A stretch of 43,335 bases of DNA from a virus (IMGVR_UViG_3300044701_003718:1-43335), one strand, 5' to 3'; positions 10,546-39,693 are shown, numbered from the stretch's first letter. Translations and numbers: made by a program. Notes: generated by a model not told the origin, from the letters alone.

Positions 10546-10558
10546 ACCTCCTCCCAGC

Positions 10559-10572
10559 GGTTCCCCCGAACC
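10559..10572. other. Short hairpin at convergent junction
   Basis: GGTTC, CCCC, GAACC forms a 5-bp hairpin on either strand between the plus-strand lysis operon and the minus-strand replication operon. It lies next to repeat element 1 and may help end transcription from one or both sides. No T run follows it on the plus strand. Confidence 0.4.
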
Positions 10573-10588
10573 ATCCTCATTATAGGGG

Positions 10589-10650
10589 GTACCGCCCGAA
10601 AAGTCTGTGAATCAGCTCAGGACTGAATACAAAATGAATCGGGTCGGTAC
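10589..10650 (-). ncRNA. Structured repeat element, copy 1 (minus)
   Basis: On the minus strand: outer stem GTACCG/CGGTAC, bulged A, CCCGA/TCGGG, loop strands starting TTCA, and central hairpin TCAGTCCTGAGCTGA. It follows the minus-strand gene ending at 10663, in that gene's orientation. The outer stem pairs perfectly over 6 bp. Confidence 0.7.
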
Positions 10651-10662
10651 GATCCCAGTATA

Positions 10663-11121
10663 TCAACCCTCAATCGATATGCTGTCATCGTCGTCATCAT
10701 GAGAGCCGACGGCGTAACCCAACCCTGGAATGCTCTCAACCACGCGACGCATGTAGTCGTGGATACGGTCCTCGTCCCAATCGCATTCATTAAACAGTCG
10801 ATTGCCTAAAATATTAAGAGCGATCGAATGCCGATCTGTCCACTTCTTCTTCTCTAAGGCGTCTTCTTTTACGCTGCTGACGGCGCCAAGGATCTCCAAT
10901 TCCATCGCGAGTGGATATTGCTCGGCAACATGCTCGGCATGTTCGACTCTCTCAGCATCAATCCAGGAAAGCACAGTCGCGAAGATATTTCCAAACACCC
11001 AAACGAAGAAGTTAGATACCGCTTCGACACCATAAACCAAGAGTTCGCCCAGCTCATGTATGCCAACAAGAACCCACTTGCCGACTTGAGCTGTGATGTC
11101 GAAGATGGTTTCTTTCATCAT
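10663..11121 (-). CDS. Membrane-associated protein of replication operon
   Basis: 152 residues, starting in a 4-base overlap with the helicase stop. Residues about 14-52 are hydrophobic and amphipathic (WVLVGIHELGELLVYGV, NFFVWVFGNIFATVLSW), and the rest is helical, acidic and soluble, ending in an Asp run (DDDDDS). It is the last gene of the operon initiator-helicase-this gene. It could anchor the replication complex at the membrane, which is inference; no family was recognised. Confidence 0.6.
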   Translation of the reverse strand: MMKETIFDITAQVGKWVLVGIHELGELLVYGVEAVSNFFVWVFGNIFATVLSWIDAERVEHAEHVAEQYPLAMELEILGAVSSVKEDALEKKKWTDRHSIALNILGNRLFNECDWDEDRIHDYMRRVVESIPGLGYAVGSHDDDDDSISIEG

Positions 11122-12920
11122 TTGAATCGCGAGCTTTTTACGACTTCGTAATTCTGCATGGTATCGTCGTTACGGAGGCTGGATGTCTCGTAGTCTAGCT
11201 GTATTAGCGACATCGATACAAATCCCCGAACAGTGGTTACTTGCTCGTTTGGCGACACACCCTCCCAGAAGGCCTGCCTGCCGCGTACCTTAGAGTGCCA
11301 AAGTTCTAGCTTTCTCTCCGATACAGGGAGCTGCTGGCCAGGTGCTTCGTGCTTACGCATTAGCCATACGGCATGGGAAACATGGCTGAGAGCGTCGGTT
11401 CCGCGAATCTGGTCAAGCTCTGGCTCCTGTACTGGCTTGCTGTCTCTGGAGTCCTGTTTGGCGTTCTTGATGCCAACCGTGTTCATCTGAGCCATAACGA
11501 ACAGATCGATGTCCAGCTCCTTGGCAGCCGTCATCAACTTGTAGGCACGTTCTTCAAGCATTGAAGAGTTGTCCCGTGATGCATCCTTGTGACGAGACAG
11601 CGCATGGAAGTGATCCAAGACGACTGCGCGGAGCTGGGGATCTTTTGCCTTCATTGTCCGCATGGAGTTAACCACGGTATCCACGCTAGCCCCCCAAGGT
11701 GCCTCAATGACCAACTTGCCGCCAAGTTCTTCAAGCTTGAACGTAACAGCAGCCACCAGGTTCTGCAAGCCATCCTTGTCGGCCGGGGAGATGCTTTCAA
11801 GCTCTCCAACGGTAACATACCCCAACCGGCTACTAGTGGCCTTCCAGTGGTATCCAGAAGTCGCTAACAGTTTTCTGCTCAGAGAAGCCAGAATGCGCGC
11901 CTCGATATAGCGGTATTCGAGCTCAGCCGATATAAAACCAACAGTCAGGCCATTAGCGGCAAGTGAAGTTGCGATCTGGCAGCCGACAGCAGTCTTACCA
12001 GCACCTGTTCTTGCAGCGAGTGTCATCAGTCGACCCCCACAAGCCCTGTGGTTCTGTGGCCGGGCAACACCTCCCTCTATGTCGAGGTCAATGGCATCGA
12101 TCCCCGTAGAAGCCGGGGGATCCTCTTTCGTGATTGAACCAATACGATCAACCCAATTCTGGCGATTGGAGCCAGGGTTGCCAATAACTGCGTCGACGAG
12201 ACTGACTGATTGGCCCTGGTTGCCAATTGCGCCACGCATCATGCCGACGCCCTCCATGGCCCGTTTTTGCAGGTACTCAAGAGCCTCTTCGAGATTGGTG
12301 TCGGCCTTGATGTTCTGTTTCGCTTCGTGCAGGGTCTCCAAGTACAAAGCACGAACCCGGACCTGTTTCAGAACGTCAAGTGCGGTCTCCCATTCTGAAG
12401 TAACCTCGCCATAGCGAGTTATGGTATCTGGCTCGGCGAGCTCGCTGATCGTTTGAGTAAAGTCAAAAATCGAGACACTGCGTGAGCTATTGCTCAAGTT
12501 GGTGTAGCTTGAAATCAGCGACTCCCTGGAGATCAATTGGTTGGTTCTTTCGCCTATAAAGGTCAGGTCAATCTCTTTGGCAATAGCGCGAAGGCAATCT
12601 TCTGACCACAGAGTTGGTGGAATCAGTTGGCCGTGACCCATGCCAAACCCGGTCCTGAGTTGTGACCAAAGCTCACGCGCCAGGCCAGACGGAGAAGAGA
12701 GTACACGGCTCAGCACTATCGCCTCCTGGGCGAGGGTATCTTCACGCTCCTGAACGCTGGTGGGCTGAAGCTTATCAACCACGCGAGCTACGTCCATCGC
12801 CCGTTCAGCGGCCTGGACATTACAGCCGACTATACGTTCCCCATCGGACTGCAATAATCCAAGGTCAACTGCTTTTTGAATATAGAACGGGAATTCCATT
12901 AGTGCTTCAGAGCTCATCAT
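11118..12920 (-). CDS. DnaB-type replicative helicase
   Basis: 600 residues from ATG 12920; an ATG follows at once (12917) and ATG 12899 is a further option. The frame continues upstream into the initiator gene but the initiator stop is at 12907. The N-terminal 250 residues are helical. The RecA-like core has Walker A LAARTGAGKTAVG (about residue 300), LGFIS-type strand (GLTVGFISAELEYRYIEARI), Walker B-like AVVLDHFHALSR and a DnaB H4-like segment (DLFVMAQMN, then DQIRGTDALSHVSHAVWLMR). It unwinds the fork; the neighbouring initiator and iterons suggest it is loaded at the adjacent origin. Confidence 0.85.
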   Translation of the reverse strand: MMSSEALMEFPFYIQKAVDLGLLQSDGERIVGCNVQAAERAMDVARVVDKLQPTSVQEREDTLAQEAIVLSRVLSSPSGLARELWSQLRTGFGMGHGQLIPPTLWSEDCLRAIAKEIDLTFIGERTNQLISRESLISSYTNLSNSSRSVSIFDFTQTISELAEPDTITRYGEVTSEWETALDVLKQVRVRALYLETLHEAKQNIKADTNLEEALEYLQKRAMEGVGMMRGAIGNQGQSVSLVDAVIGNPGSNRQNWVDRIGSITKEDPPASTGIDAIDLDIEGGVARPQNHRACGGRLMTLAARTGAGKTAVGCQIATSLAANGLTVGFISAELEYRYIEARILASLSRKLLATSGYHWKATSSRLGYVTVGELESISPADKDGLQNLVAAVTFKLEELGGKLVIEAPWGASVDTVVNSMRTMKAKDPQLRAVVLDHFHALSRHKDASRDNSSMLEERAYKLMTAAKELDIDLFVMAQMNTVGIKNAKQDSRDSKPVQEPELDQIRGTDALSHVSHAVWLMRKHEAPGQQLPVSERKLELWHSKVRGRQAFWEGVSPNEQVTTVRGFVSMSLIQLDYETSSLRNDDTMQNYEVVKSSRFK

Positions 12921-13896
12921 CGTACCGCCAGAAACGCTCTCTAGAAACTTCTGGTGCCGGCACATCTGTCGGCCAGGAGTCAAATTGATACTTCATCCTG
13001 AACCTTGCCGGGTCAAGGCCCGACTTCCTGAACTCCTCCTCCGTTTCAATTATTCGATCTGTCAGTGAGTCTAGATTGCCAGAGGCGCGCCAGATCTTCG
13101 AATACGAGTAATGTAACTCGTCGTATGTATCGATAAGACTGCGAAGATTTGAAGACAGGATCAAGTCATCGCTTCTCTTTTCTTCGTCTGTTGGCACAGC
13201 GGCACCGTATTCGAGACCATCGTTGTACAGGGAATATACGTTTTGATATTTCTGACTGGTTGGCTGCCCAGTGCCAACAATGCTTTGCAAGCTTTTATTG
13301 TTATTAGCCTTAGCCCAAAAGTCCGACTTCTCGATGCCTGCTTTCAGGATCGAAAAGAAATTATCGTAATCATGCGACTTCACACCAAGCGCCCGAATGT
13401 GTGAGTCAATAGCTTTCAGGACGTGAGAACTCATCCTGTTGACCTTGCTGTAGTTGGCCGGACGATAGCTATTCCACGAAACCCGCGCAGCTTCGACGTA
13501 ATCAACCGTGTTTTTATTTTGCTTCTTGGCAACCTCGGGCGCTGAAGTCGTGTCGATGCCCAGCTCAGTCTTGGCGATTTCCCTTGAACGGATGTCTTCT
13601 TTTTCGAGACTCGCGAGAATCGGGATTGGATTATGGACGATGATGTGGCCTTCTGTGCCAGAAATCAGACCGGCCTCGCGCAGTTCGGTCATAGCCCGAA
13701 GGCGTGTCGAACGATGGATGCCAATGCGCCGATCCAGCACGGTGCGGTCGATCGGGCGGAAATTGGCCTGATTGGCCAGGACGATCCAGAGCAGCTTGGT
13801 GGTCGGCAGCAGATCGTCGCAGAGCAGCAGCTCCAACGGAGCCTTGGCGAAGGAGGCGATGTGCCACTCCTCGTCCTTGGAAATGGTGATCTTCAT
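12907..13896 (-). CDS. Winged-helix replication initiator-like protein
   Basis: 329 residues. Residues about 30-95 form a winged helix-turn-helix (TTKLLWIVLANQANF, TVLDRRIGIHRSTRL, TELREAGLI, GHIIVHNP). The C-terminal two thirds are helical, and the arrangement resembles phage O/DnaD-like replication proteins. The gene begins about 55 bases from six iterons and is followed by the DnaB-like helicase in overlapping frames (14 bases), so it probably binds the iterons and recruits the helicase. Binding to a dyad site would also allow autoregulation. Initiator role is inference from fold and context. Confidence 0.75.
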   Translation of the reverse strand: MKITISKDEEWHIASFAKAPLELLLCDDLLPTTKLLWIVLANQANFRPIDRTVLDRRIGIHRSTRLRAMTELREAGLISGTEGHIIVHNPIPILASLEKEDIRSREIAKTELGIDTTSAPEVAKKQNKNTVDYVEAARVSWNSYRPANYSKVNRMSSHVLKAIDSHIRALGVKSHDYDNFFSILKAGIEKSDFWAKANNNKSLQSIVGTGQPTSQKYQNVYSLYNDGLEYGAAVPTDEEKRSDDLILSSNLRSLIDTYDELHYSYSKIWRASGNLDSLTDRIIETEEEFRKSGLDPARFRMKYQFDSWPTDVPAPEVSRERFWRYDDEL

Positions 13897-14183
13897 GTTG
13901 GCTGGGGGAGCCTGCCCATGGTAGCCGCCGAATCTAGCCTGTCAAGCGATCTGTTGCAAAATGCGGCACCTGTTGCAAAATGCGACGAAATTCTGTTGCA
14001 AAATGCGACAAGCAATGCTGCAAAAAACGACACCGCAATGTTGCAAAAAACGACAAGGCCAAAAAATTTTGTTGCAAAATGCGACGCTACTCTAGATTAT
14101 ATATCTCTAGAACAAAACCAAAGAACTGAAAAAGACTGTGCGGGCGCGTGGCGCCCAGGTTGTCTTGGTGGTATGGTTTGGGC
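13897..14183. other. Origin and divergent regulatory region
   Basis: A 287-base stretch without a convincing gene. It holds the iterons, A+T-rich blocks (14061-14070, 14096-14110) and TATGGT at 14172-14177, just before ATG 14184. It is the divergent control region for the minus replication operon and the plus recombination operon. Confidence 0.6.
13952..14086. repeat. Six iterons forming a probable replication origin
   Basis: Six direct repeats of TGTTGCAAAATGCGACA or close variants begin at 13952, 13971, 13994, 14016, 14039 and 14070 (spacing 19, 23, 22, 23, 31). Each is an imperfect dyad: TGTTGCA, AAA, TGCGACA. Copies 4 and 5 have AAAC in place of ATGC. A+T-rich blocks lie at 14061-14070 and 14096-14110. 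The array separates the initiator gene (minus) from the next plus-strand genes. An origin bound by the winged-helix protein is the simplest reading. Confidence 0.8.
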
Positions 14184-14462
14184 ATGAAGCCAGCCAACGA
14201 AGACCGCCGAGCGATGGCGGACGAGCACTACGAGGAGATCGGCAAGTCCCTGGCAGCACTGGTCGTGGACGCCGGCATGACGACCGGAAAGGCATGGGCT
14301 CTGTTGGGCGGCATTGGGCTCTATCGCCGCTGGATGCTGAGCCTGTGGGTTGAGCGTTACAGGGAGGAAAACCCAGCCCGAGCACGGCCTGGCAGGCGCC
14401 GCAAAAACTCTCGAGCGGAGCGCAAGGGGCTGATAGACGACCTCCGGAATCAGCGGGGTTGA
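14184..14462 (+). CDS. Small basic protein of unknown function
   Basis: 92 residues from ATG 14184; ATG 14214 gives 82 residues. The N-terminal part is helical (HYEEIGKSLAALVVDAG), the centre hydrophobic and Trp/Gly-rich (KAWALLGGIGLYRRWM), and the C-terminus strongly basic (RARPGRRRKNSRAERKG), which would suit nucleic-acid binding. It is the first gene right of the origin and precedes the annealing protein. A candidate -10 (TATGGT) ends only 6 bases before 14184, so the second ATG may be the real start. No family recognised. Confidence 0.55.
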   Translation: MKPANEDRRAMADEHYEEIGKSLAALVVDAGMTTGKAWALLGGIGLYRRWMLSLWVERYREENPARARPGRRRKNSRAERKGLIDDLRNQRG

Positions 14463-14471
14463 CTTGTCGGC

Positions 14472-14477
14472 TATAGT
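14472..14477 (+). promoter_or_regulatory. -10 promoter-like site (GGCTATAGTG)
   Basis: TATAGT in GGCTATAGTG lies 23 bases before ATG 14501. The same extended block (GGCTATAATG, then GTGTG) occurs before the SSB gene. No convincing -35 at 17 bases. Confidence 0.5.
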
Positions 14478-14500
14478 GTGCTGATCGACCCCGAACGGAA

Positions 14501-15211
14501 ATGCCCGAATTAATCCCAAACCTTGCCGGCGTAGCAACCAAAGACCTGGTTGAAACCATTGGCGCTGGTAGCTTCAAAGCCTCGTACATCAACTGGGCGC
14601 GGACGTTCAACCTGCTGCATCAGCACGCTCCCGGCTGGTACCTCGACATGGTGCTTACCCCTGACGGCGGCCAGGTCTGGCCCGCCCCGGGTAATGGCGG
14701 TTCGCTGATGCTGCGTTTCTGTCACATCGACGGAACCCAGCTTGCGCCTGTCCCCCAGTCCATCATGGACAATCGGAACGCGCCCATTCCATTCGAGAAA
14801 ATCTCATCCCGTGACATCACCGATACGCACCGTCGTGGCGGGTGTATGTGTGCGGCAATGACATTTGGCCTGGCGCAAGAACTGTGGGCCAAGATGCCTA
14901 TGGAGAGCGGCTACAGCGACTCCGCGATGGCTGAGACCGCGCAAGTTGCCGCGCCGGCTGCCGCTCCTACTGCTGCGCAAGTCACCGAGCAGGACTTCCT
15001 TGAAGCGGCCTTGGCGAAGGGGCTTAGCACTCACTCTGCCGAAGCGCTGCTCAAGGTGATCAACGGCAACTACGCCAATGGCATCAAGACGCTGGGAATG
15101 AAGGACGAGGCTTGGGTGACCGAGCAAAACGCCAAAAACGAACCGGCCCCAAAGTCCCAACCCGCCGCCCGAGCGAAGAAGGCGACGAAACCGGACGCCA
15201 GCGAGTACTGA
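14501..15211 (+). CDS. Single-strand annealing protein, Sak/DUF1071-like
   Basis: 236 residues. Residues about 18-140 match the Sak/Rad52-like annealing core: helix-strand start (KASYINWARTFNLLHQHAP), strands around WYLDMVLTPDGGQVW and a closing segment (DITDTHRRGGCMCAAMTFGL) that parallels the conserved R-x-x-x-K-A-x-A-x-x-G end of this family. The last 90 residues are an Ala/Pro linker plus a small helical region (EQDFLEAALAKGLS) and a basic tail. It anneals complementary single strands in homologous recombination, with the RecE-like nuclease at 18180 and the SSB at 16247. Family assignment is moderate because the core is divergent. Confidence 0.65.
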   Translation: MPELIPNLAGVATKDLVETIGAGSFKASYINWARTFNLLHQHAPGWYLDMVLTPDGGQVWPAPGNGGSLMLRFCHIDGTQLAPVPQSIMDNRNAPIPFEKISSRDITDTHRRGGCMCAAMTFGLAQELWAKMPMESGYSDSAMAETAQVAAPAAAPTAAQVTEQDFLEAALAKGLSTHSAEALLKVINGNYANGIKTLGMKDEAWVTEQNAKNEPAPKSQPAARAKKATKPDASEY

Positions 15212-15264
15212 GTCCGGAGGAGTTCCCAAGGCTGGAGAATCATAAATCCGGCCTCCCGGAAAGC

Positions 15265-15342
15265 ATGATCGACTGGGCTGCCACAAAGATTGCCGACTAT
15301 TTTGGCGGCGAAATAGTAAAAGATTATGAAGGCCCCGTTTGA
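15265..15342 (+). CDS. Short ORF ending inside a terminator, start unclear
   Basis: The frame ending at the TGA 15340-15342 reads SPEEFPRLENHKSGLPES then MIDWAATKIADYFGGEIV. ATG 15265 gives 25 residues. The open frame continues upstream across the annealing gene, so a CTG at about 15205 or a -1 shift near C-AAA-AAC (15129-15135) are alternatives. The stop codon lies inside the terminator stem. The composition looks coding, but the start is not settled. Confidence 0.35.
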   Translation: MIDWAATKIADYFGGEIVKDYEGPV

Positions 15343-15353
15343 CGGGGCTTTTT
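15332..15353 (+). terminator. Rho-independent terminator
   Basis: Stem GCCCCGT/ACGGGGC (7 bp) with TTG loop, then TTTTTATT. It ends the recombination leader before the sigma-factor gene. Confidence 0.85.
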
Positions 15354-15374
15354 ATTGCCCCTCCCCTTCTGGCG

Positions 15375-15383
15375 TGTTATGGT
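15375..15383 (+). promoter_or_regulatory. Extended -10 promoter of sigma-factor gene
   Basis: TG, T, TATGGT ends 24 bases before ATG 15408, the same spacing as other candidate promoters here. It would place the transcript start near 15390, after the earlier ATG at 15384, and so favours 15408. Confidence 0.5.
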
Positions 15384-15407
15384 ATGCCTGTTACCCCCGC
15401 CACCATG

Positions 15408-16226
15408 CAGGACATTAAAGACGATCTGACCAACTGGATGGATCAAGCTGGCAAAAATCCTCTGCTGACCAATGAGCAGGTATTTGAAATCGCAAGAGAA
15501 ATACAGGCGCTTGACAAGGACTCGCCAAGGCGCAAGGAGTTGGTCAGCAAGCTAGTACTGCACAACATGCGGCTTGTTATTAGATTTGTTCACAATTTCA
15601 TGAGGTCGAAATCAGCGTACAAATGGGGCTCTGTTGAAACTACAGATTTTCTTCAGGTTGGCATCTTTGGCCTGTATCGAGCAGCCGAGAAATTTGATCC
15701 AGAGCGGGGTTACACCTTCTCTACCTACGCGAACCACTGGATCCGGTCATTTGTAAGTCGTTACAACATGAAGGCCTCCAGCCCCTTCAAGATGTCTGAG
15801 GAGATGTGCCGGAACGCCTACGCGTATCAGAAATACGGCAGGATATACGATTCCGCAAAAAGCGGCCCAGAGTGGCGTGAAAATCCAGAACGGATGGCCG
15901 GGCTAGTGCGAGCAGCCCAGTCTCCAGTCTCCCTCCATTGTGAATTTGAGCCCGGAAGGTCTTTTATCGATCTTTTGGCCGAGAGGGAAGATACGCGGAC
16001 CGAGTTTTATGAAAACAGCTTCTCCCCGGAAGTTGAGCAAGCCATCAAGGAGGCAGACCTGACGGAAGAGGAAGATAGGATCATTAGAATGACCTTCCTT
16101 CATGGCAAAAAATGGGCCGAAATCAACAAAATTCAGACCATCGGAAGTGGTCGGTATGCAGCGGTTGTCAAGTCAGCCCTGAAGAAATTAAGGGATGTTA
16201 CTGACCCGGCTATAATGAGTGTGTAA
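15408..16226 (+). CDS. Sigma-70-family factor 1
   Basis: 272 residues from ATG 15408, chosen from the promoter position; ATG 15384 would add eight residues. Region 2 is clear: LVLHNMRLVIRFVHNFM (2.1), TTDFLQVGIFGLYRAAEKFD (2.2-2.3) and GYTFSTYANHWIRSFVSRY (2.4). Residues further on are helical, and the end (LTEEEDRIIRMTFLHG, KKWAEINKI, AAVVKSALKKLRDVT) fits region 4, although its helix-turn-helix is weak. It should bind host core RNA polymerase and redirect it to phage promoters, probably for a middle or late class. It lies upstream of SSB with its own promoter and terminator behind it. Confidence 0.85.
   Translation, partial: QDIKDDLTNWMDQAGKNPLLTNEQVFEIAREIQALDKDSPRRKELVSKLVLHNMRLVIRFVHNFMRSKSAYKWGSVETTDFLQVGIFGLYRAAEKFDPERGYTFSTYANHWIRSFVSRYNMKASSPFKMSEEMCRNAYAYQKYGRIYDSAKSGPEWRENPERMAGLVRAAQSPVSLHCEFEPGRSFIDLLAEREDTRTEFYENSFSPEVEQAIKEADLTEEEDRIIRMTFLHGKKWAEINKIQTIGSGRYAAVVKSALKKLRDVTDPAIMSV
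16211..16216 (+). promoter_or_regulatory. -10 promoter-like site (GGCTATAATG) before ssb
   Basis: A perfect TATAAT in GGCTATAATG lies 30 bases before ATG 16247, inside the end of the sigma-factor gene. It shares GGCTATAnTG and GTGTG with the site at 14472. Confidence 0.55.
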
Positions 16227-16246
16227 TCTACCCTCATTAGGGAACG

Positions 16247-16594
16247 ATGGCTTTTGCTTCCATTGCCGGTACTGTTACCGGCCGCACTGGCGAATCTCCT
16301 GTTACCGTCAAAACTTTTGACAGTGGTGACAGCATCGCCAGTTTCTCCGTAGCCGACCTGGCCTACGTCTACGCTAAACCCGGTGAAGATCGTCAGGGCC
16401 AGTTCTACCGCTGCGAGGTGCGTGGTAAAGCGGCTGAAATTGTTGCTGAGCGCCTTCAGCGCGGCGACAAGATTAAAGTCGACGGCCAACTCGTGCAGCG
16501 CACCTACAACGAGAAGCTTTATCTGGACGTGAAGAACGCCCAGGTGACCTTCCTCGAAAAGCGCCAAGCTGAAGGAACGGAAGTTCCGTTCTGA
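16247..16594 (+). CDS. ssb: Single-stranded DNA-binding protein
   Basis: 115 residues with the OB-fold order of bacterial SSBs: GTVTGRTGESPVTVKTF, ASFSVADLAYVYAK, GQFYRCEVRGKAAEIVAERLQ, GDKIKVDGQLVQRTYNEKLYLDVKNAQVTF. It ends in an acidic-hydrophobic tip (EVPF) like the DDLPF-type tip that recruits repair proteins. The length is shorter than bacterial SSBs because the linker is minimal. It protects single strands during replication and recombination. Two copies of the structured repeat follow its stop codon. Confidence 0.85.
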   Translation: MAFASIAGTVTGRTGESPVTVKTFDSGDSIASFSVADLAYVYAKPGEDRQGQFYRCEVRGKAAEIVAERLQRGDKIKVDGQLVQRTYNEKLYLDVKNAQVTFLEKRQAEGTEVPF

Positions 16595-16604
16595 TCCTGG
16601 CCAT

Positions 16605-16668
16605 TGGACCGACCTGATTCAAATTGTCCTCAGCTTCTAGCTGATTCAAGAGCTCTTCAGGCGGTCCA
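16605..16668 (+). ncRNA. Structured repeat element, copy 2
   Basis: Outer stem GGACCG/CGGTCC, extended to 7 bp by a T-A pair, bulged A, CCTGA/TCAGG, central hairpin TCAGCT, TCT, AGCTGA. First of a tandem pair between ssb and the gene at 16754. Confidence 0.75.
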
Positions 16669-16677
16669 TTAACCTTT

Positions 16678-16737
16678 CGCTGACCTGATTCAGATTGTCT
16701 TCAGCTTCTAGTTGATTCACAAGCTCTTCGGGCGGCG
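16678..16737 (+). ncRNA. Structured repeat element, copy 3
   Basis: Outer stem CGCTG/CGGCG with a G-T wobble, bulged A, CCTGA/TCGGG with one wobble, central hairpin with AGTTGA. Second of the tandem pair, 9 bases after copy 2. Confidence 0.7.
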
Positions 16738-16753
16738 CTAAACCCCCTAAACC

Positions 16754-17194
16754 ATGTCCAACCGCTCTGAGATGCCGCCAGGATGCGTTGGAGCCCTGGT
16801 CGACGATGTACCCCTGCTGACGACTGCGCAGGTGCGTCCGTACGTCATCGCAACGCTTCTCCATCGAGGAGCAGCAAAGGACTCCGAAATCATTGCCAGC
16901 CTGGTGCCACACTGCTCCTCAGATGACTTGAGGGTTGGTGGCTGGGATCCATTCGATGAGGAATATTGCGAAGGAACCCGCCTGGAGAAGATGGTCGGCG
17001 AGGTTCTTGGTGAATTCGTCTCGGAAAAGTTGGTACGCTACAACGAAGAGCTCGATCTGTGGGTTTTAACCACTAACGACATTCCCAGGGTAATTTCCTG
17101 GGTAGCATCACTTGGCGGCAAAATGCCTAGTCACTTGTTAATGGAAATGAGCCGTGAGCAGGTCAGTCGTCTTCCTAATTACATAGAAATTTAA
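16754..17194 (+). CDS. Unknown protein, possibly winged-helix
   Basis: 146 residues. The opening (MSNRSEMPPGCVGALVDD) is followed by helical segments (AQVRPYVIATLLHRG, EIIASLVPHC, TRLEKMVGEVLGEFVSEKLV) and a wing-like strand (DLWVLTTNDIPRVI), a plausible winged-helix order. No catalytic motif. It lies just after the tandem structured repeats and before a run of four small overlapping genes. Function not recognised. Confidence 0.5.
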   Translation: MSNRSEMPPGCVGALVDDVPLLTTAQVRPYVIATLLHRGAAKDSEIIASLVPHCSSDDLRVGGWDPFDEEYCEGTRLEKMVGEVLGEFVSEKLVRYNEELDLWVLTTNDIPRVISWVASLGGKMPSHLLMEMSREQVSRLPNYIEI

Positions 17195-17196
17195 CA

Positions 17197-18165: not shown

Positions 18166-18179
18166 CGATAAATTTACCG

Positions 18180-20536: not shown

Positions 20537-20571
20537 TATGACCAAAGAATGCGCCCGCGCACTAGAGGAAC

Positions 20572-22092
20572 ATGGCAAGTAAAATTGGCAAGGAATTTCT
20601 GCAGCGTGCGGCATCTGATCGGGAGATGGTGCGTGACTTACGTCGCGCAAAAACAAAAGCACGTGAGGACGGCCAGAGAATTATTCTCCACCGATTCATT
20701 AAAGAGGTATGTCCTGGCTATAAATTCTACAGGGTCCATGCTGAGCTAACAAAGCAGCTCCAAAGAGTCATTGACGGCGACTGCCGCAGATTGATTATTC
20801 AAATCCCGCCACGAACGGGTAAAAGCTACCTGTCATCCAAGTTGTTTCCGGCGGCCTATCTGCTAGCACATCCAGATCGCTACATAGGTATTAGTTCTTA
20901 TAGCGCCGAACTGGCAGAGGGCTTCTCAAGGGCAGCACGGGACTACTACCGCGATGCCGGCGGCACATTCGACCCCTACAAACAGGCCGTCAATGACTGG
21001 GGGACACAGGGTGGCGGGGGATTGTGGGCAGCGGGCGTTGGAGGGGCCATCACGGGCCGCTCAGGCCACTGTCTGATCATCGATGACCCGGTCAAGAACA
21101 GGGAAGATGCAGACAGTCCACGCGTCATGGAGAAGTTATGGGATTGGTACACCTCCACGTTATATACTCGCCTTGAGCCTGGCGTTGGTTCAATCGTTGT
21201 TATTCAGACGCGTTGGTCGGAAAATGACCTGATTGGCAAGCTTTTAGAGTCCGAGATGAATGTCTCGGAGAAAGGTCGGGAGAATTGGACGATCCTAGAT
21301 CTGCCAGCTATTTCTGAAGATGCTGGCTCCAGGCCGATACTGCCGGAACATTGCAACGTACCGGAGGATTGGCGAGAGGAATCTGGACTGGCGCTCTGCC
21401 CGCAAAGGTACGACATCGAGGAATATGAGCGTATCAGGGAAGCAATTGGCACCCGAGACTTTGCTGCGCTCTATCAGCAACGTCCCGCACCAGAAGCGGG
21501 CAACATGTTCAATCCATCCTGGTGGCAATATTATGAGCACGATACCGTCATGCCGGAATTTCAGCGCATAATGTTAAGCGTTGACTGTACGTTCACTGAC
21601 GCCAACAATAGTGACTTTGTTGTCGGCACGGTCGTGGCTCAGGCTGGCAACAGGTACTACGTACTGGATATGGTACGCGAAAGGCTGGACATCATTGGAA
21701 CTATCGCGATGATTTCGCGAATGTACAACAAGCACAACCTTAGTGGGACCATCATTGAGCTTGCCGCATCCGGTTATGCCGCGTATCAGCTCTTGTCAAA
21801 GCGTGTGCCGGGGCTGATTGGATTCAAGCCCGAGCGATCCAAAACAGCCCGTGCGGCAGGCATCGTTCCAATTGTAGAAGCCGGGAATGTATTCCTGCCA
21901 GTAAGCTCGACGTGGCTGGATTCATTTGTCAACGAATTCTCTCTGTTTCCAGCATCGAAGAATGATGACATCGTCGACTCTGTCGGAATGGCTATTAATT
22001 ACATGTCACAACGAACGGCGCCAATGATGACAGAAGTCACCTGGGGGCGGGGAACACAACTACCTAACGTACCAGCTAATATGGTCATATAG
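20572..22092 (+). CDS. terL: Terminase large subunit
   Basis: 506 residues, start ATG 20572 with GAGGAAC ribosome site. ATPase half: Walker A-like IIQIPPRTGKSYLSSKLF (about residues 75-92), a helical adenine-binding region and Walker B HCLIIDDPVKN (about 164-174). The nuclease half starts near MLSVDCTFTDANNSDFVVG (about 332-350) with an Asp as the first metal ligand, and later YYVLDMVRERLD and DDIVDSVGMAINY. It packages DNA into the head. It is separated from the portal gene (28891) by primase and nucleotide genes, an unusual arrangement. Confidence 0.92.
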   Translation: MASKIGKEFLQRAASDREMVRDLRRAKTKAREDGQRIILHRFIKEVCPGYKFYRVHAELTKQLQRVIDGDCRRLIIQIPPRTGKSYLSSKLFPAAYLLAHPDRYIGISSYSAELAEGFSRAARDYYRDAGGTFDPYKQAVNDWGTQGGGGLWAAGVGGAITGRSGHCLIIDDPVKNREDADSPRVMEKLWDWYTSTLYTRLEPGVGSIVVIQTRWSENDLIGKLLESEMNVSEKGRENWTILDLPAISEDAGSRPILPEHCNVPEDWREESGLALCPQRYDIEEYERIREAIGTRDFAALYQQRPAPEAGNMFNPSWWQYYEHDTVMPEFQRIMLSVDCTFTDANNSDFVVGTVVAQAGNRYYVLDMVRERLDIIGTIAMISRMYNKHNLSGTIIELAASGYAAYQLLSKRVPGLIGFKPERSKTARAAGIVPIVEAGNVFLPVSSTWLDSFVNEFSLFPASKNDDIVDSVGMAINYMSQRTAPMMTEVTWGRGTQLPNVPANMVI

Positions 22093-22102
22093 ATTTAATG
22101 AA

Positions 22103-22732
22103 ATGGCCAGAAAATCACCAGATTTTAAGCTGAGCCCAGAACAGCAGCGCATGGCTGAGCAGAATCTTAATCTGGCTAGACGTGAAGCGTGGAGGATACA
22201 GAAGACTACGGGCATCGATTATGCTACACTTGAAGGCGTTGCTTTTCTTGGCCTGTGTAAAGCCTGTTACCGCTACGACCCAGAGTCTGGGTATAAATTC
22301 TCTAGCCTTGCCACTCCGACTATTCGAGGTGAGTTATTGCACTGGGTTCGTGACAGAACTTATGCGATGAGGCTGTCTCATAAAATGCGAGAGAACTGGG
22401 TGAAAGGCAGGAGGATGCTTTATCGTGGCCTCAGCGACATAGAGGTGGCCAAAGCCCTAGAGATTCCCCTGGAGGACTGGCAGGAAACTCGTTCGGCTTG
22501 CTCCGGTCCCCCTTTAGAGCTAAAGGACCAGGCGATGCCGACGGATGCGCTTGAGCCGGACGAAATTGATTTCAGTAACATTTACAGGGAACGGGCTGCG
22601 GAAATGATTTCCAGGCTGTCGGAGGAGGATCGAACTGCTGTTACCTCGTATTTCGAGAATACTCCCGGCAAGGCCTCGATACGCCATATCGGCAACCTCG
22701 TGACCCAATACTTGAAAAACTATAAAGATTAA
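22103..22732 (+). CDS. Sigma-70-family factor 2
   Basis: 209 residues. Region 2 is visible: ARREAWRIQKTTGIDYATLEG (2.1-2.2), GVAFLGLCKACYRYDPESG (2.2-2.3) and YKFSSLATPTIRGELLHWVR (2.4). Then a region-3-like helix-turn-helix (LSHKMRENWVKG, LSDIEVAKALEIPLED) follows; the end is short and acidic with a partial region 4. It is unlike factor 1 in sequence, so the pair is not a recent duplication. It lies directly after terL with an 11-base gap. It probably directs late or another class of promoters. Confidence 0.8.
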   Translation: MARKSPDFKLSPEQQRMAEQNLNLARREAWRIQKTTGIDYATLEGVAFLGLCKACYRYDPESGYKFSSLATPTIRGELLHWVRDRTYAMRLSHKMRENWVKGRRMLYRGLSDIEVAKALEIPLEDWQETRSACSGPPLELKDQAMPTDALEPDEIDFSNIYRERAAEMISRLSEEDRTAVTSYFENTPGKASIRHIGNLVTQYLKNYKD

Positions 22733-22734
22733 CC

Positions 22735-22775
22735 ACTACGGCCTGCGGCATGCTACCCTAGGGTCGCTTCGTAGT
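22735..22775 (+). promoter_or_regulatory. Inverted repeat with extended -10 before primase operon
   Basis: ACTACG (22735-22740) and CGTAGT (22770-22775) form a 6-bp stem enclosing the 10-base palindrome ACCCTAGGGT (22755-22764) and TG, C, TACCCT (22751-22759), which is 20 bases from ATG 22780. This could be a promoter with an operator-like dyad, or a leader stem-loop. Confidence 0.4.
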
Positions 22776-22779
22776 AACC

Positions 22780-22896
22780 ATGCTTCCGTCTCGTTGGATT
22801 TTTGAGCACGCTGGTGAGATGGCCTTCTGGGTCATGGCCCTTTTCCCGCTTGCTCTGGCGCTGGCAATCTTCTTTTTTGATGAAACCGAAAGCTGA
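22780..22896 (+). CDS. 38-residue membrane protein
   Basis: MLPSRWIFEHAGEMAF, then a single hydrophobic segment (VMALFPLALALAIFFF) and an acidic tail. The TGA overlaps the primase ATG (TGATG at 22894-22898), so translation is probably coupled. Its short length gives moderate confidence. Confidence 0.55.
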   Translation: MLPSRWIFEHAGEMAFWVMALFPLALALAIFFFDETES

Positions 22897-24476
22897 TGAG
22901 CATCTCAGAGAATACGCTCATTGCTGTTCGTGAAATCCCGATGACGGCTGTGCTCGAAGCCGAGCAGATACCGTACAAGAAGATTGGCCACGAAGCAGTA
23001 ACGGTCTGCCCCTGGCACAGTGACACGAATCCGTCGCTCACCGTAAACGATGACAAGAGTCTGTGTTTTTGCTTCGTTTGCCGTGGTGGAAGCGATTCGA
23101 TTGATTACATTCAGCAGAAATTTGGCCTGTCATTCTCTGAGGCGGTAGAAAGGATTGCGTTCAGGCATAACCTTGCCATTGAACATGACAACATCGATCC
23201 GGAAGTTGCTGCTGCGGAAGCTAAAAAGCGCCGCGCCGTATTCGAGAAGCTTGAAAGGACGCAGGAAGAATTCAGGGATTATCTCAGGGATTCGAGGGCC
23301 GAACGGATCAGAGATCTGTTGCACGACCGAAATATAGCACCAGCGACAAGTCGCCAGTTTGGCCTTGGCTATTGTCCTTCTGGTTTCTTTTCAGATCGGA
23401 TAACAATCCCAATCCATGATCATCGAGGGACGCTTGTTGGTTTCACGGGTAGATCGACCCGAGATGAGGTCAAACCAAAGTACAAGAACTCCGAGAACGA
23501 CGAAGTCTTTGATAAATCCAAGATTGTATTCAATGAACACCGAGCACTGGACGCCATCCGGGAGTCGGATTCTGTGATTTTCGTCGAGGGTCACTTCGAT
23601 GTGATTTCTCTGTGGCAGCACGGTGTCAGGAATGTAGTGGCGATGCAGGGAACAGCAGCGCCAAGCGAAGCTGTTATCCACCGGCTTGCACGAAGAACTA
23701 AGCGGTTCATTCTTTGCTATGACGGAGATGCCGGTGGCGTGAAAGCAACTGAGCAGTTCCTGAAGACCGCTGGCCCGATGGCCTGCCGTGGTGAATTAAC
23801 TATTTCCATCGTTACACTACCGCCAGGTCTGGACCCGGAACAGTGTATAAACGACGAGGAGATCGATTTCTATGGCATGATAGAAAATGCTCCGACCTGG
23901 TTGGATTGGCAGCTTGATCATTGGTTAATGAATATCGACAGATCGGACACAGCTCGCTTTTCGCAGATAGAAACCGTTATCCGTGCGTTTGTTGAGTCGA
24001 TTCAGTCGCCAGCGCTGAGACAATACTATATCGATAAAGCGTCGAAAAGTCTTGCTGCGGATAATAAGATGGCTGCCACGATGGCGAAGGAATGGGCCGG
24101 GAATATCAAGTCGCAGAAGTCCAGAAGGAAATGGTACAAACCAACACCGCAGGAGACACGCAACAGCGCAGAGCGTAGGCTGCTACGTCTCTATATTCAC
24201 TTTCCTGAGCTGCGCGACCACTGCCGTGCGATGATGGAAAACCTTCAATCGCCGGCCCATCGCTGGCTGTGGCAGAGGCTGATAGAACTGCAGAGTTATC
24301 AGCCAGATAACGTATCACCGCATTCGATAATGGCGATACTCGCTGTGTGCGAGCCACACTATACCAGACAGCTACGCTCTATCGCCGTTCCGACGATTCA
24401 ACTTAAGAACAACCCCGGTATACTGAGTCACATTGAGACAGTTCTTAATACAAAGTTAATTACTAATGACAAATAA
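22896..24476 (+). CDS. DnaG-type DNA primase
   Basis: 526 residues. CHC2-type zinc site: CPWHSDTNPSL (about residue 40) and CFCFVCRGG (about 59). A helical region follows, then Toprim: SVIFVEGHFDVISLWQHGV (about 227-245) with the catalytic Glu and FILCYDGDAGG (about 271-281) with the Asp pair. The C-terminal 200 residues would contact the helicase. It makes primers for lagging-strand synthesis with the helicase at 11118. The stop overlaps the glutaredoxin gene by 11 bases. Confidence 0.92.
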   Translation: MSISENTLIAVREIPMTAVLEAEQIPYKKIGHEAVTVCPWHSDTNPSLTVNDDKSLCFCFVCRGGSDSIDYIQQKFGLSFSEAVERIAFRHNLAIEHDNIDPEVAAAEAKKRRAVFEKLERTQEEFRDYLRDSRAERIRDLLHDRNIAPATSRQFGLGYCPSGFFSDRITIPIHDHRGTLVGFTGRSTRDEVKPKYKNSENDEVFDKSKIVFNEHRALDAIRESDSVIFVEGHFDVISLWQHGVRNVVAMQGTAAPSEAVIHRLARRTKRFILCYDGDAGGVKATEQFLKTAGPMACRGELTISIVTLPPGLDPEQCINDEEIDFYGMIENAPTWLDWQLDHWLMNIDRSDTARFSQIETVIRAFVESIQSPALRQYYIDKASKSLAADNKMAATMAKEWAGNIKSQKSRRKWYKPTPQETRNSAERRLLRLYIHFPELRDHCRAMMENLQSPAHRWLWQRLIELQSYQPDNVSPHSIMAILAVCEPHYTRQLRSIAVPTIQLKNNPGILSHIETVLNTKLITNDK

Positions 24477-24690
24477 AATCAGCTACATAATGCACACTAC
24501 TGAAAACTGCCAGTGGTGCGCGAAGGCGAAAGCTTTGTTTGAATATTACGGCGTGTCGTACCAGGCGAGATACGAAAAATCCCCAGATTGGGATACCTAC
24601 CCGGCAATATATAGAATTGACGAAGAATCCGTCGAATTAATTGGTGGATTCAACGAATTAGCTACTTACTCTTTCGACCATGGGCTCTGA
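24466..24690 (+). CDS. Glutaredoxin-like protein
   Basis: 74 residues with the redox motif CQWC (residues about 16-19: TTENCQWCAKAKALFEYYG), the cis-Pro segment TYPAIYRID and GGFNEL, all in glutaredoxin order. It could reduce the ribonucleotide reductase at 25491. It overlaps the primase end. Confidence 0.8.
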   Translation: MTNKISYIMHTTENCQWCAKAKALFEYYGVSYQARYEKSPDWDTYPAIYRIDEESVELIGGFNELATYSFDHGL

Positions 24691-24925
24691 GTCCGGAATT
24701 TATTCGCAGGCAATAGCTTACGCGGTGCTCATCGGACTCATAGCACTCTATCCGCAGGACTGTCTCAACCTGGTCTCATTGGTCCTATTGCGGATCAGGG
24801 TTGTACTGCTTAATTATTTCTTAATGTTTAGAGCTTGGCTGATGTATCGACAAATCTGCCAGGACCTTGCTAGCATCGGGTTGCCGAAACCGGCATTCAA
24901 ATTCACACCACTCTGGGAGAGATAG
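24680..24925 (+). CDS. Small membrane protein of unknown function
   Basis: 81 residues with two hydrophobic segments (residues about 8-23, IYSQAIAYAVLIGLIALY, and about 28-52, LVSLVLLRIRVVLLNYFLMF) and a polar end. It overlaps glutaredoxin by 11 bases and abuts the next ATG at 24926. The hydrophobic composition suggests it is real; no family recognised. Confidence 0.5.
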   Translation: MGSESGIYSQAIAYAVLIGLIALYPQDCLNLVSLVLLRIRVVLLNYFLMFRAWLMYRQICQDLASIGLPKPAFKFTPLWER

Positions 24926-25057
24926 ATGGGCACCAGAAAGACCATCAGCGGCAACAACAAGCCGATGGAGCGGATCGGTAAAAAGACTGCACAGGGCTCT
25001 GGCTTGCGCTCGAAGCCCAGGCGGGGCAAGAAACGCTATCGTGGCCAAGGTCGCTGA
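24926..25057 (+). CDS. Conserved 43-residue basic phage protein (YRGQGR)
   Basis: Lys/Arg/Gly-rich, with KKTAQGSGLRSKPRRGKKR and the end RYRGQGR. Small phage proteins ending in this motif occur in many cyanophages and related viruses, from memory. Its ATG directly follows the previous stop. Disordered nucleic-acid binding is likely; function unknown. Confidence 0.6.
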   Translation: MGTRKTISGNNKPMERIGKKTAQGSGLRSKPRRGKKRYRGQGR

Positions 25058-25058
25058 G

Positions 25059-25361
25059 ATGGGGGAGCCCGTCCCAGTCACTCAGGTTGAACGGTCTGCG
25101 AACATCGTGCTGCATATGATAGCAGAAGGGCGCTATGCCGAAGCCGCTTCTTTTCTCTTCGGTATGCACAAGATGCACATCGAGGAGTGGGTCGCCGTCA
25201 AGCGCGAGCTCCTTGGGGCAGCAGGCGATGCCAAGAGTCTTCAGACGATTGCACTGCTGTTCGAGGCGTCTAAGCGATCGACCTTACAGGAGTCTGCTCC
25301 GTTCATCCCTGGTCTTGGATCCTTAATCCAGACTGATTTTAACCCCGAGCTGACAGAATAA
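25059..25361 (+). CDS. Small helical protein of unknown function
   Basis: 100 residues from ATG 25059 (GTG 25041 would add six and overlap the previous gene). Mostly helical (SANIVLHMIAEGRYAEAASF, WVAVKRELLGAAG, LQTIALLFEASK). No motif. It is the last gene before structured repeat copy 4 and then the RNR gene. Confidence 0.5.
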   Translation: MGEPVPVTQVERSANIVLHMIAEGRYAEAASFLFGMHKMHIEEWVAVKRELLGAAGDAKSLQTIALLFEASKRSTLQESAPFIPGLGSLIQTDFNPELTE

Positions 25362-25364
25362 AAA

Positions 25365-25424
25365 GATTGACCCAATTCATTGTGTCTTCGGCTTCGTGCT
25401 GATTCAATCGTTCTTTGGGCAGTC
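25365..25424 (+). ncRNA. Structured repeat element, copy 4
   Basis: Outer stem GATTG/CAGTC with one wobble, bulged A, CCCAA/TTGGG (compensatory pairs), central TCGGC...GCTGA with a G-T pair. Single copy before nrdJ. An 11-base block GACTAAGCTGG follows at 25434 and occurs again at 27848, just after nrdJ. Confidence 0.7.
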
Positions 25425-25490
25425 CATCATTCTGACTAAGCTGGTTCTTCGTTTTGCTGCCCGGCAGCCTATCTTCGCATCTCTAAAATT

Positions 25491-27845
25491 ATGGCCGAAT
25501 TTCGCCAGACAGCACCGTCCGCACCAGCCGTCTTTTACCGTTCGTATTCTCGGCGGAAGGATGATGGGAATCGTGAAAACTTTGAAGAGGCCATCACCAG
25601 GACGGTCTCTGCTATTGCCGATATCGGAAAATTCACAGCCGCACAACGTGAAATGGCCCTGGAGATGGGGCTGGCACAATATTGCTTCCCGAGTGGCCGA
25701 GCACTGTGGGTAGCTGGTACCGAATGGTCCAAGAAGCCCGAAAACTTCCCCGGCTACTACAACTGCTGCTCCATGCACGTTGAGGATGTCTCAACGTTCG
25801 GACTGCTGATGGAGCTTGCCATGATGGGCACTGGCACTGGCGCCGTCCTGGAGCAGGACGTTATTGATCGCCTGCCCGCCGTGCGTCGTGGACTTGAGAT
25901 CGAAGTAATCAAGCACAACGAAGACACCAAAGGTGGTGCCGAAACCACCGAAATCAAGCTCGCTGGGGTGCAAGACGAAAATCCAGTGATCCTGGTCAGG
26001 GTCGGTGACTCCCGTCAGGGATGGGCTTCTGCCTACCAGGGATTGATTGAACTGGCAATGGGACAGCCTGCTGAAGGCGAGGAAGACTCGAGCACCTGCG
26101 TAGACGCCCTGATCATCCTTGACCTTAGCCAAGTGCGACAGGCTGGCGAACCTCTCAAGGGTTTCGGCGGCACTGCCAATCCCGTGCGACTCCAAGAGAC
26201 CCTCGAGCGGGCGTGTACGGTGCTCTCCGGCGCTGTTGGCCGCAAGTTGACCGCTGTCGAAGCCTGTCTACTTATCGACGAGGCCGCTAGCGCAGTTGTG
26301 GCTGGGAATATCCGCCGCAGCGCTGGCATGCGCCAATTCAGCGCCCACGATGATGAAGCCGCTGTCGCGAAGGAAGGCCTCTACAAACAGGACGAGGAGG
26401 GGAACTGGTCGGTTGATCCCGACAAGGAAGCCCTGCGGATGGCAAACCACACCCGTTGCTATCACACCAAGCCGTCACTGAAAGAGATCAAGGACGCTGT
26501 AACGAAACAATACTGGTCTGGCGAAGGTGCCATTCAGTATGTGCCGGAAATGGTCGCCCGAGCTAACGCAGACCTGCTGGACGATGCCGCGAAGAAAAAG
26601 TTTTTCCTGAACCTCTACTCTGCTGGCGGCAAGGATGAAGCGAAGGAGTATTTGAAGACTCTGGCGCTAAAGGTTGGCGAACCCGCCGACGACAAAATCC
26701 TGTCTCACCGGATGGAGCGGTATGGCTTGAACCCATGTGGAGAGATTGCCCTTCGTGACAACCTTTGCAACCTGTCAGAGGTTCACCTTAATACCATCCG
26801 CCCCGACGATGCAGAAACTCAAGAAAAGGCTTTTTACGCTGGCGGTCTCCAAGTTGCAGCCTTGCTCCAGCACAAATTCGTACCCGAGCGGCTTGATTAT
26901 AGCCGTACAAATGATCCTATTGTTGGAGTTAGCTTTACTGGTCTATTTGATTTCTTTGTCCACGCCTTTGGCTCTGAATGGCTGGCATGGATGATGGATG
27001 GCCGTCCGTGTGGACGCCTGATGAGGAAATTCTCCGAGCTGGAGCGCCAATTCCTCACGAAGTGGCGAATCGCCGCAGAACGTGGTGTCGTCGACTATTG
27101 CGAGCAAGCTGGCATCCGTATCCCTAACCGCTACACCACCGTGCAGCCGGCGGGGTCCAAGAGTCTGCTCACTGGTGCCTCCCCTGGCTGGCATCCCCCC
27201 AAGGCCCAGCGCTTTATCCGCCGAATCACGTTTGGGGTTAACGATCCGCTGGTCAGCGCCCTGCGGGATTATGGCTACTCGGTGATTCCTGCTCAGAGCG
27301 CCCGCGACGATGAGGGCAACCTGCTGGACGACATCAGCGATCCCCGGGTGCGCGAAGTGTTGGTTGAGATCCCGACCGAAGTAAGCTGGGCCAATCTCCC
27401 GGGTTGCGACGAGTTCGACCTGGCTCAACTCCCGGTCGAAGCGCAGTGGGGGCTGTACATGCAGGTACAGAACTTCTACACCACTCACAACACCAGTGCC
27501 ACTCTGGAGTTTCGTGAAGATGAAATCGACCTGATGTCGAATCTGATTTACGAAAACATCAAGATGGATGGTGGTTACATCTCGGCAGCCCTGCTGGCCC
27601 GTTTCGACGCGAACGAGACCTTCCCACGGCTGCCCTTCGAACCCATCGACAAGGCCACTTACGACCGGCGGATGGCTGCTGTCATGGCCGCTCGCAGCGT
27701 CCTAGCAGATGATGTCACCGTGCTTGACCTGCTCAAGCAGTATGACAATGACTCATACGAGTTGAAGGGTGCTGCTGGGTGTGACAGCGCAAAATGCCTA
27801 TTCGATTCGGGTAAGGACGCCGATCAGGTTGGTAAGATGGGGTAG
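25491..27845 (+). CDS. nrdJ: Class II ribonucleotide reductase, monomeric, B12-dependent
   Basis: 784 residues, close to the roughly 740 of the Lactobacillus-type triphosphate reductase. Hallmarks: YYNCCSMHVEDVSTFG with the first redox Cys region (about residue 90), NPCGEI (about 416-421) with the radical Cys and Glu, then DNLCNLSEVHLN with the second Cys, and a C-terminal CDSAKC (shuttle Cys pair, spacing five). There is no NrdB-like partner nearby and no ATP cone recognised. It converts ribonucleotides to deoxyribonucleotides with adenosylcobalamin. It is flanked by structured repeats on both sides. Confidence 0.88.
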   Translation: MAEFRQTAPSAPAVFYRSYSRRKDDGNRENFEEAITRTVSAIADIGKFTAAQREMALEMGLAQYCFPSGRALWVAGTEWSKKPENFPGYYNCCSMHVEDVSTFGLLMELAMMGTGTGAVLEQDVIDRLPAVRRGLEIEVIKHNEDTKGGAETTEIKLAGVQDENPVILVRVGDSRQGWASAYQGLIELAMGQPAEGEEDSSTCVDALIILDLSQVRQAGEPLKGFGGTANPVRLQETLERACTVLSGAVGRKLTAVEACLLIDEAASAVVAGNIRRSAGMRQFSAHDDEAAVAKEGLYKQDEEGNWSVDPDKEALRMANHTRCYHTKPSLKEIKDAVTKQYWSGEGAIQYVPEMVARANADLLDDAAKKKFFLNLYSAGGKDEAKEYLKTLALKVGEPADDKILSHRMERYGLNPCGEIALRDNLCNLSEVHLNTIRPDDAETQEKAFYAGGLQVAALLQHKFVPERLDYSRTNDPIVGVSFTGLFDFFVHAFGSEWLAWMMDGRPCGRLMRKFSELERQFLTKWRIAAERGVVDYCEQAGIRIPNRYTTVQPAGSKSLLTGASPGWHPPKAQRFIRRITFGVNDPLVSALRDYGYSVIPAQSARDDEGNLLDDISDPRVREVLVEIPTEVSWANLPGCDEFDLAQLPVEAQWGLYMQVQNFYTTHNTSATLEFREDEIDLMSNLIYENIKMDGGYISAALLARFDANETFPRLPFEPIDKATYDRRMAAVMAARSVLADDVTVLDLLKQYDNDSYELKGAAGCDSAKCLFDSGKDADQVGKMG

Positions 27846-27853
27846 CCGACTAA

Positions 27854-27919
27854 GCTGGCTGACCTGATTCAGATTGTCTTCAGCTTCTAGCTGATTCAGA
27901 ATCTCTTCAGGCAGCCAGC
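27854..27919 (+). ncRNA. Structured repeat element, copy 5
   Basis: Best-paired copy: GCTGGCTG/CAGCCAGC (8 bp), bulged A, CCTGA/TCAGG, central hairpin TCAGCT, TCT, AGCTGA. Begins 9 bases after the nrdJ stop. Confidence 0.8.
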
Positions 27920-27933
27920 AAAGTTTTCAATCA

Positions 27934-27991
27934 ATCGACCCGATTCACCTTGTCTTCAGCCCTGAGCTGATTCAGGATCTCTTCGGGCGAT
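27934..27991 (+). ncRNA. Structured repeat element, copy 6
   Basis: Outer stem ATCG/CGAT, bulged A, CCCGA/TCGGG, central TCAGC/GCTGA with loop CCTGA. Tandem partner of copy 5, 15 bases later. Confidence 0.75.
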
Positions 27992-28013
27992 CTACCTAAT
28001 TCGACTGCGAGCG

Positions 28014-32954: not shown

Positions 32955-32981
32955 GGCCTTTGGACTCAAAAGTCAACAAAC

Positions 32982-39631: not shown

Positions 39632-39693
39632 GGATCGACCTGATTCACATTGTTCTCAGCTTCTAGCTGATTCAGCCCCTCTTCAGGCGGCCC
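39632..39693 (+). ncRNA. Structured repeat element, copy 7
   Basis: Outer stem GGATCG/CGGCCC with one mismatch and one wobble, bulged A, CCTGA/TCAGG, central hairpin TCAGCT, TCT, AGCTGA. First of the last tandem pair. Confidence 0.7.

Follow-up and report, generated by a model that had tools for sequence, protein, structure and literature searches.

Transcript-end formation has, to our knowledge, been little studied in cyanophages. Elsewhere, RNase III acts on early transcripts of phage T7 at sites such as R1.1, which is 60 nt long with a 4/5 internal loop (PMC6121014), and the REP, BIME and REPIN sequences are small, dispersed extragenic palindromes, also found in clusters, for which roles in termination and mRNA stability have been proposed (PMC3733652). 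PeSLs are characterized in PMC3950731, in a statement citing Arbiol 2010, as mobile regulatory cassettes of T4-type phages. The SAS and ESAS sequences of Cluster K mycobacteriophages are co-oriented intergenic repeats spread over the genome, half of them with inverted repeats (PMC3203893), and the stoperators of L5-type phages are 13-bp DNA sites in short intergenic spaces, with an orientation that correlates with transcription (PMC9283540). TIGR arrays encode units with a stem, two short loop strands and an inner part, arranged with pseudo two-fold symmetry (PMC12045711).

Here we describe a 63-nt element that occurs eight times, seven times on the plus strand and once on the minus strand and always between genes, in a 43,335-bp record of an uncultured virus (IMGVR_UViG_3300044701_003718:1-43335), referred to below as the window (Table 1). 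A covariance model trained on the window copies themselves and run on the window with filters off matched these eight at 69.9-85.4 bits, with the next best match at 12 bits; independently of the model, a blastn comparison of the window with itself matched the copies to each other at E values down to 7e-23. Both searches recovered, on the strand it had given, every copy named in an initial sequence-only reading of the window, although the pair at 39632-39764 lies outside the range 10546-28013 that this reading had assigned to the family.

Table 1. Element copies, the genes they trail and related sites; positions refer to the window unless a contig is named, and distances from a stop codon run to the first base of the element.
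Feature	Coordinates	Strand	Description
e1	16606..16668	+	first of tandem pair, 11 nt 3' of ssb stop; 85.0 bits; 16/16 pairs Watson-Crick
e2	16677..16739	+	second of ssb pair, 14 nt 5' of next gene (16754); 75.6 bits
e3	25364..25426	+	single copy in gap between gene ending 25361 and nrdJ (25491), 2 nt past stop; 73.3 bits
e4	27856..27918	+	opens the pair 10 nt past the nrdJ stop (27845); 85.4 bits; orthologue L001:44-106, 85% identical
e5	27932..27994	+	second of nrdJ pair; 76.6 bits; orthologue L001:119-181
e6	39632..39694	+	first of pair 3' of gene ending 39622, 9 nt past stop; 78.8 bits
e7	39702..39764	+	second of pair; 69.9 bits; T8 begins 8 nt past stem
e8	10588..10650 (reads 10650-10588)	-	convergent junction, 12 nt past the stop of the minus-strand gene 10663-11121; 76.5 bits
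ssb	16247..16594	+	phrog_44 E 2.7e-15, PF00436
nrdJ	25491..27845	+	class II ribonucleotide reductase; phrog_367 E 1.3e-154
Small protein	10663..11121	-	N-terminus hydrophobic; the S-CRES1/3 homologue carries the annotation 'RNase III', which is not supported
Small hairpin	10558..10571	+	separate hairpin GGTTCCCCCGAACC 3' of plus gene at convergent junction; identical sequence in relatives G002, L002
Site without element	32950..32975	+	L001 has a copy at the same place; from pairwise alignment with L001 and L013
L001 pair	L001:44-106, L001:119-181		after nrdJ, orthologous to 27856-27994; first copy (L001a) starts 10 nt past stop
L001c	L001:5139-5200		overlaps stop codon
L091 copy	L091:291-353		66.8 bits; 22 nt past stop of gene upstream of major capsid gene

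At each of the five window loci the element runs in the direction of the gene it trails, as the sequence-only reading had already recognized for four plus-strand loci (ssb, 25361, nrdJ and 39622) and one minus-strand locus (10663), and begins 2-12 nt past the stop codon. All five loci (5/5) are wholly intergenic, compared with about 11% of the window, which has a chance probability of roughly 1e-5. Tandem pairs are found at three loci, with 7-13 nt between the paired copies. The next start codon follows after 14, 64, 19 and 18 nt in the window and after about 130 nt at a single locus of L001 (L001c), and e8, at a convergent junction, is followed by no gene on its own strand. A leader function is disfavoured because the distance from the upstream stop is always short, that to the next start varies and e8 has no gene after it; translational control of the next gene, one of the roles suggested earlier, is a poor fit to the same spread of distances (14-64 nt in the window) and to the convergent copy. 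The minus-strand copy had also been presented as evidence from orientation. It does exist on that strand, and lies nearer the stop of the minus gene (12 nt) than that of the plus gene (42 nt), but at a convergent junction either orientation "follows" a gene, and e8 is therefore no test of orientation. Orientation alone is in any case a weak argument for a transcript-level role, because L5-type stoperators, which are DNA sites, also have an orientation correlated with transcription (PMC9283540).

Better evidence on the level of action comes from the predicted fold. An alignment of 12 copies, the eight in the window and four from two other contigs (L001 and L091), supports a fold in which a 12x12 internal loop separates an outer stem, carrying a bulged A, from a 5-bp hairpin, and RNAalifold recovered this fold from 10 copies with no structure supplied. 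Across the 12 copies, 91.7% of pair cells hold a pair and two-sided changes occur in 8 of the 16 pairs, a result that none of 500 shuffles matched; pairing falls to 32-45% when the alignment is slid by one column. In the L091 copy, CTTAA/TTGAG takes the place of CCTGA/TCAGG. The extended hairpin covaries, in contrast to the two local hairpins with 12-nt loops (CTGA-N12-TCAG) drawn initially, which we rejected since their outermost pair never forms and they show no covariation. Among core pairs, G.U outnumbers A.C by 15 to 3 (binomial p 0.008, in related copies that are not fully independent), and the folded strand is therefore the gene-sense RNA. This excess answers the question of RNA versus DNA better than orientation does, and, together with the covarying stems, it is what mainly sustains the transcript-level role that had been proposed.

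The two sides of the internal loop have the consensus sequences UUCA-NNN-WGU-NY and UUCA-NNNN-YYY-U. Identity is 1.00 in loop columns 13-16, 21-22 and 51 and 0.96 in columns 40-43, which correspond to UUCA, GU, the final U and the second UUCA, whereas neighbouring loop columns are close to random (0.25 in columns 44-47, 0.33 in columns 17-19). As particular unpaired bases have been kept while free sites are saturated, selection acts on the loop itself.

Among named phages the nearest are S-CRES1-3 and S-CBS2, siphoviruses of estuarine Synechococcus, with helicases 47-51% identical to that of the window. Pattern scans of IMG/VR located four further copies, three in L001, whose portal protein is 96% identical to the window's, and one in L091 (whole contig, G021), whose major capsid protein is 65-72% identical to its S-CRES and S-CBS2 counterparts. 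At the L001:5139 locus the element is missing from both the window and the relative L013. Searches of a further 20 relative contigs and of the complete genomes of S-CRES1, S-CRES3 and S-CBS2 detected no copy, and as far as can be seen from the sequences the family appears to be lineage-restricted among the relatives compared. Dispersed intergenic repeat families of the relatives' own were absent among the matches listed, which for repeat-rich genomes were the best 25 pairs. An origin in the host was considered and rejected: the exact pattern, strict enough that diverged copies could escape it, had one match in GTDB genomes, in Proteus, without the outer stem and read as chance. A loop-only pattern returned 30 stretches, all of which except L001 form base pairs at no more than 9 of 14 positions and are chance matches, and the matches of half-element patterns were likewise attributable to chance, L001 excepted.

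The same gene ends in relatives carry simpler structures. Behind ssb, all 11 relatives have a GC-rich hairpin, followed in 8 of the 11 by at least five T within 8 nt (a count in which G006, L006 and L008 are near-copies of one another), and S-CRES3 and S-CBS2 have T-run terminators there. In the slot before the capsid gene, an intrinsic terminator is present in six of six relatives (G002, G006, G009, G011, S-CRES3 and S-CBS2); L091 has the element instead, with an outer stem extended to 10 bp and followed by CTTTTTGG (TTTTT). The statement in the sequence-only reading that no T run directly follows the stems thus holds for all eight window copies, which have 1-4 T in the 8 nt just past the stem, but not for L091. 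After nrdJ, a hairpin is found with a T run in L021, L023 and L024 and without one in L013, L014 and G006, and no hairpin was found in G009 and G011; the slot of e3, before nrdJ, has no stable hairpin among the relatives compared. The elements therefore look like replacements for terminators or 3'-end hairpins at several slots, not at all of them. Sites resembling intrinsic terminators also occur elsewhere in the window, for example at 35320-35341 and 33491-33519, so a special element is not needed merely to terminate.

Separately, a conserved, apparently structured leader, GTACCCAGCCCTGA...GGGGAGGGTCTAGCGC, lies between terminator slot and capsid gene at L091:355-495 and at the corresponding position in G002, G006, G009 and G011, possibly preceded by a promoter-like GGTATCATAAG; in L091 this leader has no Rfam match.

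On balance, we favour an interpretation of the elements as structured RNA modules of 3' ends that form a dispersed family. The features behind it that sequence comparison establishes are the fold and the selection on it, the strand, the gene-end position, and the replacement of terminator hairpins at the ssb and pre-capsid slots. Each element would be transcribed as the tail of the mRNA of the upstream gene, would fold there into a long hairpin with the conserved 12x12 internal loop, and would take over the job of the plain terminator or 3'-end hairpins of relatives, so that the 3' end of the mRNA is made or protected and the following transcription unit is partly insulated. In doing so it would halt RNA polymerase or make it pause, leave behind a stable 3' end, or both. 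The near-invariant loop bases may be read by a specific factor of host or phage origin, since a hairpin acting as a plain terminator would have no need of conserved loop bases, which simple termination leaves unexplained. The tandem loci of the window are unlikely to terminate transcription completely, as the 14-19 nt before the next start could not accommodate a promoter; termination that is partial, or a point of cleavage or protection, is more likely at these loci. Evidence against 3'-end modules includes the lack of a T run directly after the stem in all eight window copies, the lack of hairpins in the e3 slot of relatives, the lack of one in the nrdJ slot of G009 and G011, and the terminator-like sites elsewhere in the window. 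A bolder version, which we regard as rather unlikely, is that these are regulatable terminators or 3'-end elements of a previously undescribed phage RNA class, in which a dedicated factor reads the pseudo-symmetric loop and resets transcript ends throughout the genome during infection.

The other readings overlap with the 3'-end module, sharing ground with it, so their probabilities are not expected to sum to one. A factor-controlled switch, in which a phage or host RNA-binding protein would recognize the pseudo-symmetric UUCA...U loops and toggle termination or decay during infection, is a stronger form of the 3'-end module and not exclusive of it. Invariant loop bases amid saturated neighbours agree with such a switch, as does the UUCA...U pattern common to both loop strands, which a two-fold symmetric binder might prefer; Pfam and PHROGs scans of the window ORFs, on the other hand, revealed no RNA-binding regulator and offered no candidate protein, and we put this forward tentatively. 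A little less probable, in our estimation, is intercistronic processing, whereby a read-through transcript would be cleaved by an RNase of the host, either RNase III-like or, in the loops, RNase E, so that the upstream mRNA keeps a hairpin protecting its 3' end and the downstream gene is released, as at the early RNase III sites of T7. The irregular intergenic hairpins of about 60 nt are close in size to T7 R1.1, a 60-nt site that also has an internal loop (PMC6121014), the window copies lack a T run, and the 14-19 nt between element and start at three loci seem to require read-through, but the 12x12 loop and an upper stem of just 5 bp contrast with the 4/5 loop of R1.1 (PMC6121014). The sequence-only reading had preferred RNase III-like processing to termination, a preference undercut by the T-run terminators and plain hairpins that relatives carry at the same slots and by the one copy with its own T run. 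Nor is a phage RNase III recognizable: Pfam searches with the protein encoded at 10663-11121 and its counterparts in six relatives gave no match to RNase III, and neither did a search of PDB sequences with the window protein. The S-CRES1/3 homologue, gp1 (L058:70-504 and L060:54-488), is annotated as RNase III without a match to that family and is likely a misannotated small membrane-type protein, and we rejected the idea of a phage RNase III adjoining e8. RNase III processing of the elements is possible, without being specially supported.

We consider it improbable that the copies are miniature mobile elements of REP/REPIN or PeSL type that landed after stop codons by chance and kept their structure for mobility as single-stranded DNA. 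The family is multi-copy and lineage-restricted, L001 has a copy at a site that is empty in the window and L013, and 20 other relative contigs, S-CRES1, S-CRES3 and S-CBS2 have zero copies, as mobility might predict; yet the scanned window ORFs include no transposase or RAYT, the copies contain no sigma-70-like promoter, unlike PeSLs, their stems stay compensated despite saturation of the free sites between copies, and an excess of G.U over A.C is the expectation for RNA and not for a DNA hairpin. Far less probable is an asymmetric regulatory site acting in DNA as a stoperator-like roadblock. Stoperators are likewise situated in short intergenic spaces and oriented with transcription, but they are 13-bp sites (PMC9283540), whereas here 8 of 16 pairs have compensatory changes and the outer stem is free to change in sequence. 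Least probable of all is a repeated peptide-coding sequence, either a micro-ORF or a protein repeat. In most copies the frame from column 6 reads [DN][LP]I[HQ]xV[FL][SG]..LI[HQ]x.F, and an in-frame ATG lies upstream in L001c and L091, but 5 of 12 copies contain an in-frame TAG, several window copies lack an in-frame ATG, GTG or TTG upstream, and pN/pS is 0.59 compared with 0.60-0.61 in another forward and two reverse frames (permutation p 0.14). There is also no phage protein match, and coding leaves the complementarity of the outer stem unexplained; this reading is not supported.

Several other features of the window were observed. A glutamine (glnA) riboswitch aptamer (56.4 bits) lies at 41939-41999 on the plus strand, 5' of small ORFs near the contig end, and the relative L040 has another glutamine riboswitch at 7882-7946. 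Adjoining genes for tRNA-Leu(taa) and tRNA-Ile(tat) occupy 36867-37022 on the minus strand. About six short direct repeats (TTGCAAAATGCGAC / TTGCAAAAAACGAC) at 13950-14086, near a junction of divergent minus and plus genes, resemble iterons or operators, and a 27-bp tandem direct repeat, AGGTAAGAATAGTCTATAG..., is present at 42611-42664. Long in-phase repeats of 153 nt were found within an ORF at 1247-2770, which is probably the window ORF with matches to beta-propellers (SGL/lactonase-like).

The elements constitute a sequence-defined, testable RNA family at cyanosiphovirus gene ends, absent from Rfam. Since ordinary terminators are naturally swapped for them at orthologous sites, what a conserved internal loop adds to a terminator can be compared directly, and, should a dedicated factor read the loop, the family is possibly a new RNA class.

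Rfam covariance models matched no family at the elements, the best scores in the e1-e2 region (14.4 and 12.5 bits) being at chance level; in the window they matched only tRNAs and the glutamine riboswitch, both away from the elements. Compared with riboswitches, the elements track upstream stops in position, and no gene lies downstream of e8 on the same strand. By the tests listed here they are not REP/RAYT, PeSL or TIGR elements, and they are unlike stoperators. Like REP, BIME and REPIN sequences they are small, dispersed, extragenic and also clustered (PMC3733652), but they are longer than 20-40 bp, have no RAYT, are direct in their tandem copies and are asymmetric with respect to the RNA strand; their alignment has no constant GTAG or CGTC end, and no transposase was detected among the ORFs scanned. 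PeSLs, as outlined in PMC3950731, are also dispersed intergenic stem-loops in a phage genome; the elements differ from that outline in being tied to the upstream 3' end and in having no promoter found in a scan of the copies for sigma-70-like sites. A stem, two loop strands, an inner part and pseudo two-fold symmetry are shared with TIGR units, but the loop bases are conserved where TIGR has variable spacers of 8-12 nt, and the copies are dispersed singles or pairs; TIGR-like guide arrays were rejected on the basis of the conserved loops, the absence of an array, and the absence of a Nop or Tas protein among the domain matches listed for window ORFs. With SAS and ESAS the elements have in common a genome-wide, co-oriented intergenic distribution (PMC3203893), but SAS sit at the start of the downstream gene and the elements track upstream stops. 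T7 early RNase III sites such as R1.1 are similar as irregular hairpins of about 60 nt between genes (PMC6121014); the elements do not consist of two helices around a small internal loop, have a conserved, pyrimidine-rich 12x12 loop above which the stem is 5 bp, and recur as related sequences. The resemblance to intrinsic terminators lies in a stable hairpin directly after stop codons, at a gene end, in the same slots as in relatives and, in the L091 copy, with a T run. A U tract directly after the stem is found in that copy, in 0 of 8 window copies and in 0 of 2 tandem copies of L001, and, unlike intrinsic terminators, the elements combine a conserved 12x12 internal loop with a conserved inner hairpin and are often in tandem. 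The 63-base fold with its eight copies is probably a new and more elaborate kind of gene-end signal.
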